A stretch of 44,795 nt of DNA from Gemmatimonadaceae bacterium (lineage in GTDB: Bacteria; Gemmatimonadota; Gemmatimonadetes; Gemmatimonadales; Gemmatimonadaceae), in assembly GCA_025358925.1 (NCBI GenBank), contig JANYHT010000042.1, forward strand, positions 1-44,795, written 5' to 3'. This document shows, one piece after another, positions 2,234 to 44,795 of this stretch. The translations under genes and the position numbers were made by a program. Under the pieces are notes generated by a model that searched no databases, was not told the origin of the DNA, and worked only from the letters and a program-made list of their open reading frames with translations. Position 1 is the first letter of the stretch. Each line of letters begins with the position of its first letter.

Positions 2234-3310
2234 TCAGACGACGCACATTGCATCCCCATACGAATAGAACCGATACTGCTCGGCCACCGCCGTCCGATAC
2301 GCGTGCATCGTTTGCTCATAGCCTGCAAAGGCCGCGAGCAGCATCAGCAGCGTTGAACGTGGCAGATGAAAATTCGTGATGAGATGATCAACACCGCGGA
2401 ACTGATACGGTGGTCGGAGAAAAATGTTGGTGCCGCGACTGATCGGTTGGATGCGTCCCGATGCATCGGCGGCCGATTCGAGCGTGCGCACACTGGTCGT
2501 ACCCACGGCCCAGAGTTTGCCGCCGCGATCGCGCACGGCATTCAGCGCCTGCGCCGACTCCGCCGACACTTCGCACCACTCTTCGTGCATGATATGCGCG
2601 GAGGGATCATCGTCTTGCACCGGACGAAATGTGCCCGGCCCAACGTGCAGCAAAACATTGACGCGTTGCACCCCGCGCGCTTCGATACGTGCCAGCAGTT
2701 CGGGAGTGAAATGCAATCCGGCGGTTGGTGCGGCGACGGACCCGGATTGATCCGCGAAGACGGTTTGGTAGCGCGACGTGTCGTTCACATCGTCGGCGCG
2801 ATTGATGTACGGCGGTAGTGGAATATGACCGAACTGTTCAATCGCATCGCGCACGTCGCCCTCCGCGTGGAGCCGTACGATGCGTGTCCGATGCGGCGTC
2901 GTCTCGACAATTTCTACGCGAAACCCTGGTGCGATGGTAACCGTACGTCCCGGTCGTAATTTGCTGCCGGGATGCACCATCGCTTCGTAGTGCGTGTCAT
3001 CCACTGGTCGCAACAAGAGGAACTCAGCCGGGCCACCGCTGTCCCGACGGCCAAGCAGTCGCGCGCGAAAGACACGCGTCGTGTTGACGACGATCGCGTC
3101 GTTTGCGGGAATGAGTTCGGCGAGATCGCGAAAGGTGCGGTGCGTGAGCGTGTTTGCCGCTCGATCGAGCACCAGCAATCGACTTCCATCACGCGGCTCG
3201 ACGGGACGTTGGGCGATGCATGCGGTCGGCAGATCGTAGTCGTAGTCGGACGTACGGCTGCCTGCGATGTGGACAGACGAGTCCGCGGAGACTGGTAATT
3301 CTGGGCGCAT
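2234..3310 (-). CDS. queA: S-adenosylmethionine:tRNA ribosyltransferase-isomerase
   Basis: Transfers and isomerises the ribosyl moiety of SAM onto preQ1-tRNA to give epoxyqueuosine. The start at 3308-3310 gives 358 aa, as expected for QueA. Motifs include YDLPTACIAQRPVEPRDGSR, the GGPAEFLLLRP segment, LPPYINR, and the C-terminal NFHLPRSTLLMLLAAFAGYE. An open frame extends upstream to 3631, but it only translates a purine-rich tract, a GCGGAGGC tandem repeat and a trinucleotide microsatellite (giving poly-valine), so it is not part of the protein. The first 25 residues before YDYDLP are somewhat longer than usual and could include non-native sequence. Confidence 0.95.
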   Translation of the reverse strand: MRPELPVSADSSVHIAGSRTSDYDYDLPTACIAQRPVEPRDGSRLLVLDRAANTLTHRTFRDLAELIPANDAIVVNTTRVFRARLLGRRDSGGPAEFLLLRPVDDTHYEAMVHPGSKLRPGRTVTIAPGFRVEIVETTPHRTRIVRLHAEGDVRDAIEQFGHIPLPPYINRADDVNDTSRYQTVFADQSGSVAAPTAGLHFTPELLARIEARGVQRVNVLLHVGPGTFRPVQDDDPSAHIMHEEWCEVSAESAQALNAVRDRGGKLWAVGTTSVRTLESAADASGRIQPISRGTNIFLRPPYQFRGVDHLITNFHLPRSTLLMLLAAFAGYEQTMHAYRTAVAEQYRFYSYGDAMCVV

Positions 3311-3452: not shown

Positions 3453-3503
3453 AACTGCGGTTTCGCGGAGGCGCGGAGGCGCGGAGGCGCGGAGGACGCG
3501 GAG
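3453..3503 (+). repeat. GC-rich repeat terminus, expanded copy (GCGGAGGC units)
   Basis: Reads AACTGCGGTTTC followed by three GCGGAGGC 8-mers, then GCGGAGGA and CGCGGAG. This is the same sequence as the left terminus of the 382-bp element at 39829-39865, but with extra 8-mer units and without the CA of TTTCACGCG. A shorter copy in inverse orientation is at 4027-4045, so the GxxExxY gene lies between them. Confidence 0.8.
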
Positions 3504-3532
3504 AACAGCAGAAGAACAAGAACAAGGGAAAG

Positions 3533-3630
3533 CACCACCACCACAACAACTACAACAACAACCACCACCACCACAACCACCACCACCACCACCACCACAA
3601 CAACAACCACCACCACCACCACCACCACCA
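3533..3630 (+). repeat. (CAC/CAA)n trinucleotide microsatellite
   Basis: About 98 bp made almost only of CAC and CAA triplets, with a single TAC near 3551. It ends 8 bp before the ATG of the GxxExxY gene. A run of this length is prone to slipped-strand changes. On the opposite strand it reads as GTG/TTG and produces a spurious poly-valine extension of queA. A shorter repeat of the complementary type, (GTT)n, is at 20598-20638. Confidence 0.95.
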
Positions 3631-3638
3631 AAGAAAAA

Positions 3639-4082
3639 ATGGAACTTGACGATATTACAGAGGCAATAGTGCAAGAAGCGTTGAAAATTCACATCGCGCT
3701 TGGGCCGGGATTGCTAGAGTCGGTGTTTGAAGTGGTGTTAGCGCATGCACTCGTGCGGAGGGGTTTTGCGGTGGAGCGTCAAAAAGCGGTTCGTATTCAG
3801 TATGACGGACTTCATTCCGTGGACGGATTCCGCGCCGATCTCGTGGTAAATTCGCGGGTCATCGTGGAGATCAAGTCGCTCGACCGTGTTGCGTCGGTGC
3901 ATTCCAAACAGCTCCTCACCTATCTGCGACTCATGCATTTACCAGTGGGATTGCTGATCAATTTTGGCGAGGCCCTGTTAAAGCAGGGCCTTCACCGCGT
4001 GGTGAACGGGCTCGACCCAGTCACGTCTCCGCGCCTCCGCGTGAACAGATCGTTGGCCGAATGCGCGAAGGCGATTCATTGA
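3639..4082 (+). CDS. GxxExxY protein (PD-(D/E)XK-like nuclease superfamily)
   Basis: 147-aa protein of the GxxExxY family, which shares the PD-(D/E)XK nuclease fold; its biological role is not established. The name motif appears as G24-LL-E27-SV-F30, with Phe replacing the usual Tyr. The putative catalytic elements are D67 in FRADLVV and E77/K79 in VIVEIKS, followed by QLLTYLRLM, a conserved helix. The ATG follows a microsatellite by 8 bp with only a weak A/G-rich ribosome-binding region. Residues 130-136 (SPRLRVN) are encoded by the inverted GC-rich repeat, and the last residues run past it, so the C-terminus is probably not native. The end overlaps the convergent GWxTD gene by 7 nt. It is the only plus-strand gene in this stretch, which suggests insertion. 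Confidence 0.85.
   Translation: MELDDITEAIVQEALKIHIALGPGLLESVFEVVLAHALVRRGFAVERQKAVRIQYDGLHSVDGFRADLVVNSRVIVEIKSLDRVASVHSKQLLTYLRLMHLPVGLLINFGEALLKQGLHRVVNGLDPVTSPRLRVNRSLAECAKAIH
4027..4045 (-). repeat. GC-rich repeat terminus, short inverted copy
   Basis: Plus-strand CTCCGCGCCTCCGCGTGAA. It is the exact reverse complement of a 19-nt part of the left terminus of the element at 39829-40210. It lies inside the 3' end of the GxxExxY gene and supplies codons 130-136. Confidence 0.85.
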
Positions 4083-6313
4083 ATACGGAAGCTGGTTTGC
4101 CGAGAGGTTTTGCGCTGATTGGCGAGATCGGTCACGTCAACGCGTAGTCGATACGCGCCCGACGGCGAGTTGGACACATCAAGTTTGAGAAACTCCACCA
4201 GCGTATTCGCCGAGGCCACGGTGCGATCAAATGAAATTGTGAGTTGATCGCGTCCGCCCTGCGCGCGTCCTAACGTTTTCCCGAGCCCGTCGAGCAGGCG
4301 TGCCGCGAGACCAGCCGCGCCGCCTTTGCTGATGCGTTCGATCGTTACTGCCAATCGATATTTGTTTTGTCCGTCTTTGGCGACGAGATCGTACATCTCC
4401 CACAGGAGTCCGATGGCCGATCCGGTGGGATACTGTCCAACACCCGGTTGCATGCTGACATCGGTCCAACGTTTGGGTGCGCTGCTGGCACTGTTGGGCG
4501 TAGGTGTGCTGCCCAGCAGCACGTCGCTCATGCCGAAGCCGGTGTTGACTTCGGGATTGAGTCGCGTCAATGCCCGCGCCGCGCGTTTGCTGTCCGCCTG
4601 CAGCGCTTCGACGCGCAGCACGTTGATGCCAGGACCAATACGGCGTGTCCACGTCCGCATCACCGGCGCGATCGCGGAATCGGGACGGACGCTTGTTTGC
4701 TCGGACTCTATGCCTCTGATGCGCACGAACTGATCGAACAATCGAATGTCGACGTCGATTGGCGCCCGTGTAAGCCCTAATCCGTGCACGAGCGAGTCAA
4801 ACGGAATGCGCGCTGCCACGACGACGTCTGACGAGTCGCTACCACTACGAAAACGTGCGACACGAATGGCGATGGTATCGAGGAGTCGCGTGGACGGAAC
4901 GTTATCCCACGCCACAGGCACAGCGTTTTTGACCTGTTCAACATTGTCGTGATCGGCAAAAGCAAAGCGAGCCGTGCCGAAGCCCGGTGGCAGGTCGAAG
5001 AAAAATACGAGACCGCTGTTGTACATCCAGACCAGCGATACACCGCCGTCCAATCCACTCGTGGTGCCAGCGACGGTTAGTTCGACATCGGGCGGTCCGT
5101 ATCGCACGTGCACATCGCCCCGGTCGGTATCAGCGCCGAGCAGGTCGAAGTCTTCGTTGGTCCACCGAAAATCGGCAAAGGTGACACGGGCATAAAACTC
5201 CAGCTGATATTCGTTTTCACTCGTGAGCGCGAGTGGATCGCTCATCATCCAATACATGGCTTCGAGTCCACGCTGTTGTGGCGCCGGCAGTTTGGCGTAA
5301 CCGACCGTGTCTCCTATTTGCCCGTCCGCGTTTTTCACCGGCCGCGGTCGCAAAATGCGCGTGAAGCGCGTGAACCGCGCACGATCTGTGTCGTCCATGA
5401 GTGCCTTGGCGCTGTCGAACGCGATTTTCGCGCCTTGCTCGTCGTTCAGCCGATGAGACGCGAGTCCGCGAGCGAGCCACGACTGATAGTCGAACGGAAA
5501 GCGTTTGCTGCGCTGTATGCCAAGTTCACGCATTTCATGCCACCGGCTTCGTTCGCCCAAGGCCATGAAAAGGTGACGACTGAATCGGAGATTGGTGGGG
5601 TCGACCGCGAGCGCTGCTGCAAATTTTACGAAAGCGTTGGCATAGTCAGTATTTCCTGTAGGCGGTTCAATTTTTTTTGCAAAACTCTCGACGTAACTGC
5701 GGGCCTTGTCGCGCTGCCAATTGTTCGCGTTCGAGAGTTGAATCTTTTGACGGTCAAACGTGAGTGCGCGATTGGCGATGGCTTCATACCGACGCCACGT
5801 GGCCATTCCTACTTCGTCGGCTGCAACGGCGAGCAGCAAACTATCGCCCGCTTTCGTGGCTGCGTCGAATGCGTTACCCACCTCGCTGGTGGCCGCGAAT
5901 CGTAACGTGGACACGCCCGAGGAGAGGTTGAACTTACTGAGCGCGAGCCAGTAGCGCGCGCTATCGGGCGCAAGTTTGGTTGCCAGTCGCAATGCGGTGT
6001 CTGCACCGATCAGCAAACGAATGGTGCGTTGGTCGCTGATGTATTGCGCATTGCGTTTCGCTTTGGCCATACTCCAATTGAGCAAACCGAACTGCAGCCA
6101 CCCCGCGGCATTTTTCGCATCCCTGTGCAGCGCAGAATCGAGCAAGGCATACGCCCGCGCGGTGTCGCCCGCGCTCGCAAGAGAATCGGCGCGAGCGGCC
6201 ATGTTTTGGCGGCTGAATGCATTTTGTGCTATGACGACTTGCGGCACGAACAGTGCGCCAACCAAGCATAACGAAATCACCAGCAACCGTCTCAAATTGG
6301 AGTGCATTAGCAA
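4076..6313 (-). CDS. GWxTD domain-containing secreted protein
   Basis: 745 aa. Residues 1-30 form a signal peptide (LLVISLCLVGALFVPQVVIA, cleavage near Ala29-Gln30). Residues about 35-310 are helical and alanine-rich with TPR-like spacing (GDTARAYALLDSAL, DEQGAKIAFDSAKAL). The GWxTD region is recognised at about 375-410 by FADFRWTNEDFDLLGADTDRG then DVHVRYGPPD; RGxVxxxYGPPD is the most diagnostic part of this domain. The C-terminal third is beta-rich. The GWxTD domain is common in Gemmatimonadota and Acidobacteriota and has no established function. The gene starts 9 nt downstream of the ruvB stop on the same strand, so the two are probably cotranscribed. A second ATG three codons in is an alternative start. 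Confidence 0.85.
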   Translation of the reverse strand: MLMHSNLRRLLVISLCLVGALFVPQVVIAQNAFSRQNMAARADSLASAGDTARAYALLDSALHRDAKNAAGWLQFGLLNWSMAKAKRNAQYISDQRTIRLLIGADTALRLATKLAPDSARYWLALSKFNLSSGVSTLRFAATSEVGNAFDAATKAGDSLLLAVAADEVGMATWRRYEAIANRALTFDRQKIQLSNANNWQRDKARSYVESFAKKIEPPTGNTDYANAFVKFAAALAVDPTNLRFSRHLFMALGERSRWHEMRELGIQRSKRFPFDYQSWLARGLASHRLNDEQGAKIAFDSAKALMDDTDRARFTRFTRILRPRPVKNADGQIGDTVGYAKLPAPQQRGLEAMYWMMSDPLALTSENEYQLEFYARVTFADFRWTNEDFDLLGADTDRGDVHVRYGPPDVELTVAGTTSGLDGGVSLVWMYNSGLVFFFDLPPGFGTARFAFADHDNVEQVKNAVPVAWDNVPSTRLLDTIAIRVARFRSGSDSSDVVVAARIPFDSLVHGLGLTRAPIDVDIRLFDQFVRIRGIESEQTSVRPDSAIAPVMRTWTRRIGPGINVLRVEALQADSKRAARALTRLNPEVNTGFGMSDVLLGSTPTPNSASSAPKRWTDVSMQPGVGQYPTGSAIGLLWEMYDLVAKDGQNKYRLAVTIERISKGGAAGLAARLLDGLGKTLGRAQGGRDQLTISFDRTVASANTLVEFLKLDVSNSPSGAYRLRVDVTDLANQRKTSRQTSFRIQ

Positions 6314-39828: not shown

Positions 39829-39865
39829 AACGGCGGTTTCACGCGGAGGCGCGGAGGACGCGGAG
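39829..39865 (+). repeat. Left inverted terminus of the 382-bp element
   Basis: 37 nt beginning AACGGCGGTTTCACGCGGAG. It matches the reverse complement of 40174-40210 at 36 of 37 positions. Copies of its core occur at 3453-3503, 4027-4045 (inverse) and 44453-44466 (first part only). Confidence 0.9.
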
Positions 39866-40173
39866 AAAAAACCAAACAAAATTGGAGTCTTCCGTGAATC
39901 TAGGGAGAGGCGCCGGTTGAACAGCAACGCCGAACCGCGAATAACACCAAGGACGCGAATGTGCCTCCGAACAGTATCCGGTTGGATCGCGTGATGCCGG
40001 CATCGCACTGTTTTCATTCAAGGGATAGTGCAACGCTATTTGCCGGTCGACACGTCACCCGCGCTCACACCAACCGAGTTCGCGGCAGTTCGATGGTTTG
40101 CTTTTCTTTGGATTTTCCTAAAAATTCGAGCAACGCCAGTCTGACCGTCGACGCCCCACCGGTTTTGCAGTTC

Positions 40174-40210
40174 CTCCGCGTCCTCAGCGCCTCCGCGTGA
40201 AACCGCCGTT
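40174..40210 (-). repeat. Right inverted terminus of the 382-bp element
   Basis: 37 nt ending CCTCCGCGTGAAACCGCCGT on the plus strand followed by T. It differs from the perfect reverse complement of the left terminus by one base (A at the position of a C). It ends 11 bp before the tdh stop codon. Confidence 0.9.
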
Positions 40211-41939: not shown

Positions 41940-41953
41940 CTCCTCACGAGGAG
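41940..41953 (+). promoter_or_regulatory. Leader hairpin 2, overlapping the Shine-Dalgarno of the histone-like gene
   Basis: CTCCT at 41940-41944 pairs with AGGAG at 41949-41953 around loop CACG. The AGGAG half is the likely ribosome-binding sequence (GAGGAG, nine bases before the ATG at 41963), so the hairpin could hide it. A second possible site, TAGGA, lies at 41956-41960. Confidence 0.5.
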
Positions 41954-41962
41954 AGTAGGATC

Positions 41963-42286
41963 ATGGCACCAGCAAAGAAAGCTGCGAAGAAAGCGGCGAA
42001 GAAGGGTGGCCGTAAGGCTGCAAAGAAGGGTGCGAAGCGGGCTGTGAAGAAGGGCGCGAAGAAAGCAGCGAAGAAGGGAGCCAAGAAGGGCGCGAAAAAG
42101 GCCGCCAAGAAGGGTGCCCGCAAGGTCGCCAAAAAGGGCGCAAAGAAAGCTGCAAAGAAGGGCGCCAAGAAGGCGGCAAAGAAAGGCGGCCGCAAGGCTG
42201 CAAAGAAAGCCACCAAGAAAGCTTCCAAGCGCAAGACGGCCAAGCGCGCCAAGAAAGTTGTCGCTCCGGCTCCGGTCGCAGTGTAA
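41963..42286 (+). CDS. Lysine/alanine-rich histone H1-like protein
   Basis: 107 aa made of repeated KKAAKKGAK-type blocks with occasional Gly-Arg (GGRK) and ending KRAKKVVAPAPVAV. About half the residues are Lys, with most of the rest Ala and Gly. This composition matches bacterial histone-H1-like DNA-binding proteins that resemble the C-terminal tail of eukaryotic H1 and are proposed to compact DNA. There is no globular domain. The ATG follows GAGGAG (41948-41953) and TAGGA. Codon use is nearly uniform AAG/AAA with GCG/GCC/GCT variation, showing repeat expansion rather than recent exact duplication. The NYN protein 4 kb away has a similar tail. Confidence 0.88.
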   Translation: MAPAKKAAKKAAKKGGRKAAKKGAKRAVKKGAKKAAKKGAKKGAKKAAKKGARKVAKKGAKKAAKKGAKKAAKKGGRKAAKKATKKASKRKTAKRAKKVVAPAPVAV

Positions 42287-44452: not shown

Positions 44453-44795
44453 TTCACGCGGAGGAACAACGAAAAACGAGAACACAAATCAGATAAAAGT
44501 CGAAGGAAAACCACAAGCAAAAAAATGGGCTCGTCCGGGAATTTCGGGAGAAGCGTCGGTCGAACAGCAACGGCTGACCGCGAATGGCGCGAATAGCGCG
44601 AATGTGTTCCACTCCGGATGCGGCTGGATCGCGTGATGCCGGTCGCGCACTTTTCGCATCGAAACCACGGAAACGCACGGATACCACAACATGCTGTGTG
44701 GTTGCGGTTGCTGGATCGGCGTGATCCGCTTTGTCTCCGTTCAGTGTATCCGTGCCTTCTCCGTTCCGCAGTTTGCTTTTCTTGCGTCTTCGGGG
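44453..44795. mobile_element. Related repeat element, truncated by window edge
   Basis: Ten bases after the mutM stop a GTTTCACGCGGAGG (first half of the 39829-39865 terminus) begins a segment that resembles the interior of the 382-bp element in the same orientation: GGGAGAAGCGTCGGTCGAAC, ACCGCGAATGG, GCGAATGTG, GGATCGCGTGATGCCGG and later GTTTGCTTTTCTT, which is at 40096-40108 in the other copy. The right terminus, if present, is beyond 44795. It has extra A-rich sequence near 44466-44530 absent from the other copy. Nothing convincingly coding is seen. Confidence 0.5.

Follow-up and report, generated by a model that had tools for sequence, protein, structure and literature searches.

The closest described systems are the RAYT genes and their REP sequences. 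A RAYT gene is flanked by inverted repeats that are also dispersed through the genome as intergenic hairpins, each genome holds few, diverged copies of the gene, copies are rare on plasmids, and the repeat type follows the gene clade (PMC2817692, PMC3116915, PMC8266576, PMC8049555). Genes of another family, S23, are known from the intervening sequences of 23S rRNA (PMC4990558). GxxExxY genes occur in many bacterial phyla, and the culturable species with matches include Gemmatirosa kalamazoonensis. A limited literature search found neither a published account of repeats flanking them nor a match to the arm sequences described here.

We analysed a GxxExxY gene in a stretch of 44,795 nucleotides (the window) from a Gemmatimonadaceae genome of 4.0 Mb (G000). 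Its product scores as a full-length member of the family, with E-values of 4e-35 against PDDEXK_3 (PF13366; 121 bits, cut-off 22) and 1e-36 against GxxExxY (TIGR04256; 125.5 bits, cut-off 35). The protein has no match to a Y1 transposase, PDDEXK_3 alone being above the cut-off in that search. Among 16 GxxExxY sequences from several phyla, residues E27, D67, E77 and K79 are invariant and Q91 is nearly so; judged from this comparison, the PD-(D/E)XK active-site residues of the window protein are intact. The predicted model (pLDDT 82) adopts a restriction-endonuclease-like fold, and its best structural match is SSO0001 (Z 9.5). A structure-specific activity was considered from the match to the Holliday-junction resolvase HJC; its Z of 6.7 is no higher than that of restriction enzymes, and therefore no such activity is claimed from it. 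A search of PDB sequences with the protein and an Rfam search of the window returned no match.

Features of the window discussed in the text, with positions numbered from its first nucleotide
Feature	Position	Strand	Remark
queA (Pfam Queuosine_synth)	2237..3310	-	host-operon neighbour flanking the insertion on one side
Left (5') inverted arm	3453..3503	+	AACTGCGGTTTC and five GCGGAG units in phase, with spacings of 8/8/8/9 nt; same terminus at about 20 other places in the genome
G-free CAC/CAA low-complexity leader, left arm to gene	3533..3631	+	sister species also has one, of different repeat make-up
GxxExxY gene, 147 aa, PD-(D/E)XK nuclease fold	3639..4082	+	conserved E27, D67, E77-x-K79, Q91
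Right (3') inverted arm, CTCCGCGCCTCCGCGTGAA	4027..4045	-	read through as SPRLRVN in the C-terminus of the gene
745-aa ORF	4076..6313	-	neighbour on the other side of the insertion; adjoins queA in 17 congeners that lack the cassette
Gene-less 382-bp element	39829..40210		same termini as the GxxExxY cassette
Degenerate second-family arm, (CGCGAATNN)x3	39936..39960	+	located in the 382-bp element's loop
Perfect second-family arm, (CGCGAATNN)x3	44579..44603	+	

The sequence-only reading of this locus had placed a PD-(D/E)XK-like gene, opposed in strand to its neighbours, between two termini of the same family as those of the 382-bp element. All of this is borne out. The gene lies on the plus strand, and queA and the 745-aa ORF, which has no Pfam match, are both on the minus strand. 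Positions 3480-3505 of the left arm are identical to 39842-39867 in the 382-bp element, and the right arm is 100% complementary to 39838-39856. The whole left arm reads AACTGCGGTTTCGCGGAGGCGCGGAGGCGCGGAGGCGCGGAGGACGCGGAG. It is atypical in having five units and in the loss of the 'AC' of TTTCAC; the standard form, TTTCACGCGGAGACGCGGAGGACGCGGAG, is found in the sister species. CAA-rich tracts that resemble the leader between left arm and gene are also seen in the loops of other repeat copies.

The pattern GCGGAGGCGCGGAG has 38 matches with one mismatch or none in G000, against 13 for the reversed pattern. Copies of this family are often arranged as head-to-head inverted pairs, 60-330 bp apart, and those that were fetched share an end of roughly AACNGCNG-TTTCAC-GCGGAG-NN-GCGGAG-NNC-GCGGAG. 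Most of the CGCGGAG-family copies enclose no gene, and many lie away from any GxxExxY gene. The gene-less copies fold as hairpins: three of the four that were folded have z-scores of -8 to -11 relative to shuffled sequences. Inspection of five gene-less elements by eye revealed no target-site duplication, and no site at close range was cleanly empty. An element-free site was not found for any gene-less hairpin; the sister-species sites that were examined held shortened or eroded hairpins. At the site of the 382-bp element, for instance, the sister genome (G306) has a bare hairpin whose loop measures about 45 nt; the loop in the window is about 300 nt long and includes the degenerate second-family arm.

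Several single sites show further variation. At the element in L053 4379-4633 (G000:C16, about 106.4 kb), the sister genome has only the short palindrome GCTGCGGTTTCACACG-ACAG-TGTAAAACCGCAGC, which looks like a hairpin collapsed to its outer ends. The CGCGGAG-family hairpin at L052 1264-1569 (minus strand) encloses a 101-aa ORF that by eye looks like a remnant of an IS3-type orfA. The window also contains a run of a degenerate 12-bp tandem repeat at 41947-42258, with 16 registers.

A link between a nuclease and a repeat family, as proposed from the window, extends to the Gemmatimonadota generally and to other phyla. We aligned the 500 nt upstream of 60 Gemmatimonadota GxxExxY loci with the reverse complement of the 300 nt downstream; these loci are not a random sample but the top-scoring matches whose flanks were long enough, and the controls were intervals of equal size taken from the same sequence stretches (up to 20 kb). 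Matched inverted arms with a score of at least 16 were found at 31 of the 60 loci, compared with 0.63% of 9982 control intervals and none of 20 loci of ParE toxin genes. About half of the Gemmatimonadota loci have no detectable arms. A further 18 relatives come almost all from other phyla, among them Bacteroidetes, Planctomycetota, Proteobacteria and Lentisphaerae (the sister species is L033), and at 15 of the 18 the arms score above the 99.9th percentile (15.0) of 1209 controls. Arm-framed genes include one in Sphingomonas parapaucimobilis, where it lies between fabD and fabG, and one that follows radA in Bacteroides finegoldii.

The sequence-only reading had also called for an enrichment test of the repeats around GxxExxY genes within the phylum, and its outcome was positive. 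An RCNRAG triple lies within 300 bp of 21/60 loci and of 55/4347 control intervals (odds ratio 42, p 2e-23); for triples on either side of the same locus or interval the counts are 10/60 and 1/4347, respectively. Among the relatives from other genomes it is present within 300 bp in 15 of 18. The stop codon precedes the right arm in 30 of the 33 arm-bearing loci, often by 0-5 nt, and this near-zero spacing indicates that arm and gene form one compact unit; arm-gene-arm cassettes measure roughly 0.5-0.7 kb. That the last codons of the gene are made from the repeat is true of the window, where SPRLRVN near the C-terminus is the translation of the right arm, and does not stand as a general trait: such a C-terminus is uncommon, the gene ending before the arm in those 30 loci.

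These counts bear on a reading in which independent hairpin repeats merely gather near accessory genes. Two genomes without a GxxExxY match (G174 and G049) still have 38 and 28 RCRRAG triple repeats, as this reading would allow, and the presence of S23 genes likewise correlates with repeat number. The repeats of these two genomes could either be orphan populations or belong with a gene missed in an incomplete assembly. Against hitch-hiking, the RCNRAG-type unit was found at 0/20 ParE and 0/20 S23 genes, its two-sided occurrence is 10/60 at GxxExxY loci against 1/4347 in controls, the stop-to-arm spacing is close to zero, the arrangement recurs across phyla, and arm type follows the protein clade. 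Given these counts the hitch-hiking reading is strongly disfavoured, and we consider it very improbable. We discounted the genome-level correlation between repeat number and presence of the gene (32/36 against 64/262), which is confounded, since S23 genes show a correlation too.

Arm types vary by locus and include CACAGAG, CACGGAG, CGCAAAG, CACGAAG, CGCGGAG and rarer ones; the two arms of one locus match. The more identical two proteins are, the more similar their arms tend to be (Mantel r 0.21, permutation p 0.0005), a correlation that still includes shared ancestry. GAG- and AAG-type units require 9 changes on the protein tree, compared with 13.2 after shuffling (7 or 2 of 500 shuffles were as low). 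One genome (G283) has six GxxExxY paralogs in two clades, with 62-67% identity within and 41-53% between clades; among the four typed paralogs, one clade has GAG units and the other AAG units. Taken from these comparisons, arm type tends to follow the GxxExxY protein tree.

Alternatively, the arms could act at the level of RNA, as hairpins in the gene's own transcript that serve autoregulation, RNase III processing or termination, in the manner of the 23S rRNA intervening sequences, with the dispersed copies being general intergenic hairpins. The high stability of the hairpins would fit such a role, and so would the S23 genes of those intervening sequences (PMC4990558), which have the same arm architecture. 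Matched inverted tandem-repeat arms occur at 15 of 20 Gemmatimonadota loci (L198-L217) of S23 (TIGR02436), which encodes a four-helix bundle, and their units of about 7 bp include AGGAGTC, GGTGTCT and GGGAAAC. However, the GxxExxY arms occur in both orders relative to the gene, their repeat unit is gene-family-specific and tends to follow clades, and many copies lie away from any GxxExxY gene. We regard a regulatory or RNA-level role as improbable. An S23 gene is also present in G000 itself (C31:3198-3518).

The cassette is a lineage-specific insertion at its site. The gene order 745-aa gene, queA, tgt is largely conserved across the genus. The 745-aa gene adjoins queA without GxxExxY in 17 congeners, and ruvB adjoins queA in six. 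No GxxExxY gene was found near queA in any of 27 other congeners; only G000 and the sister species carry the cassette there, so it most likely entered this site after the genus had started to diversify. Stable, ancient residence at the site, which would have spoken against a mobile cassette, was accordingly not seen. A second cassette (L114) is shared or replaced at its site in congeners and so provides no clean empty site.

An autonomous transposon resembling an insertion sequence would likewise produce a lineage-specific insertion such as the one next to queA; the nuclease would then be the transposase, the arms its terminal inverted repeats and the gene-less elements deletion derivatives of the MITE type. 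The compact cassettes, the gene-less elements with the same termini and the Sphingomonas cassette inserted within a fab gene pair are all compatible with this model. Yet GxxExxY copies within one genome are at most 67% identical, and no genome examined has a near-identical pair. The gene has no match in phages and none in viral contigs, and is found on plasmids in only 8 of 72,556 records, all predicted to be non-mobilizable. Target-site duplications were not seen, and the majority of copies are gene-less. The diverged paralogs, the absence from phages and the near-absence from plasmids, together with the lack of a target-site duplication evident by eye, argue against an ordinary insertion sequence; the autonomous transposon model is in our view unlikely. 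The suggestion of an autonomous cassette with the 382-bp element as its plain deletion derivative is not supported in that form, given the same paralog, phage and plasmid results and the bare hairpin at the 382-bp site of the sister genome.

Along with its two repeat families, G000 contains a pair of GxxExxY genes, the second of which (C28) sits among (CGCGAATNN)x3 repeats of the CGCGAAT type, which are present in about 50 copies (56 pattern matches, control 1), often as inverted pairs 160-200 bp apart (L279-L308). This second gene has Asn at the position of the catalytic Lys and a shortened end. At the corresponding site the sister genome retains only a gene remnant; two perfect CGCGAAT copies were found in G306, and at least one second-family site there holds an eroded copy. 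The lower number of CGCGAAT copies alongside loss of the second gene is suggestive, as a single comparison with a fragmented MAG that is 90% complete.

At the level of sequence, these comparisons document the arms, the gene-family specificity, the closeness of gene and arm, the association between arm type and protein clade, the gene-less copies with hairpin-forming capacity and the lineage-specific arrival of the cassette. From them we infer mobilisation of the hairpins or of the cassette. We think it reasonably probable that GxxExxY genes and the surrounding hairpin repeats constitute a two-component system, in which the PD-(D/E)XK nuclease recognises the arms and helps to spread, convert or maintain the hairpins. 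A resident nuclease would recognise inverted arms made of phased 6-bp cores (here CGCGGAG), which both flank its own gene and form the gene-less hairpin population elsewhere in the genome. The nuclease may bind extruded or single-stranded hairpins and cut at or near the edge of an arm. Repair or re-integration of the cut hairpin could then copy it to new sites or homogenise existing copies.

Such a system would provide a testable role for nucleases that many genome annotations name only by a sequence motif, and a likely source of the CACAGAG, CGCAAAG and CGCGGAG hairpin repeats in several phyla. If it is real, matched gene-repeat pairs should exist in each genome, and the cognate substrate of a protein could be read from its flanks.

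Comparison with S23 elements hints at a wider class. In both cases a small gene lies inside matched arms; the proteins are unrelated, and the units are about 7 bp in S23 arms and 8-9 in those of GxxExxY. One architecture is thus used by two unrelated small proteins. We speculate, tentatively, that these are widespread minimal elements, in which a small non-transposase protein (GxxExxY and, separately, S23) governs its own fast-diversifying, tandem-repeat-armed hairpins with clade-specific units, through a mechanism, at the DNA or RNA level, that differs from known transposition.

The GxxExxY system shares terminal inverted repeats and short gene-less copies with MITEs and insertion sequences, but differs from them in having no transposase of a known kind, no visible target-site duplication and no recent gene copies. 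Its likeness to RAYT/REPIN is closer: a resident, diverged gene is accompanied by a population of cognate gene-less hairpins and, as in a REPtron, lies between two inverted copies of its own repeat, both in the window and at the arm-bearing half of the Gemmatimonadota loci. Identity with RAYT was rejected, since there is neither a Y1 transposase nor a REP palindrome. The GxxExxY enzyme belongs to the PD-(D/E)XK fold, whereas that of RAYT is a Y1 HUH transposase, and the GxxExxY arms consist of 6-bp cores phased at intervals of 8-9 bp, in contrast to the 20-40 nt REP palindrome with its GTAG/CGTC head. Gene and repeats together look like a selfish or repeat-maintenance two-part system undescribed in the literature we found, for which RAYT/REPIN, built around a different enzyme, appears to be the better analogy and the nearest functional analogue.
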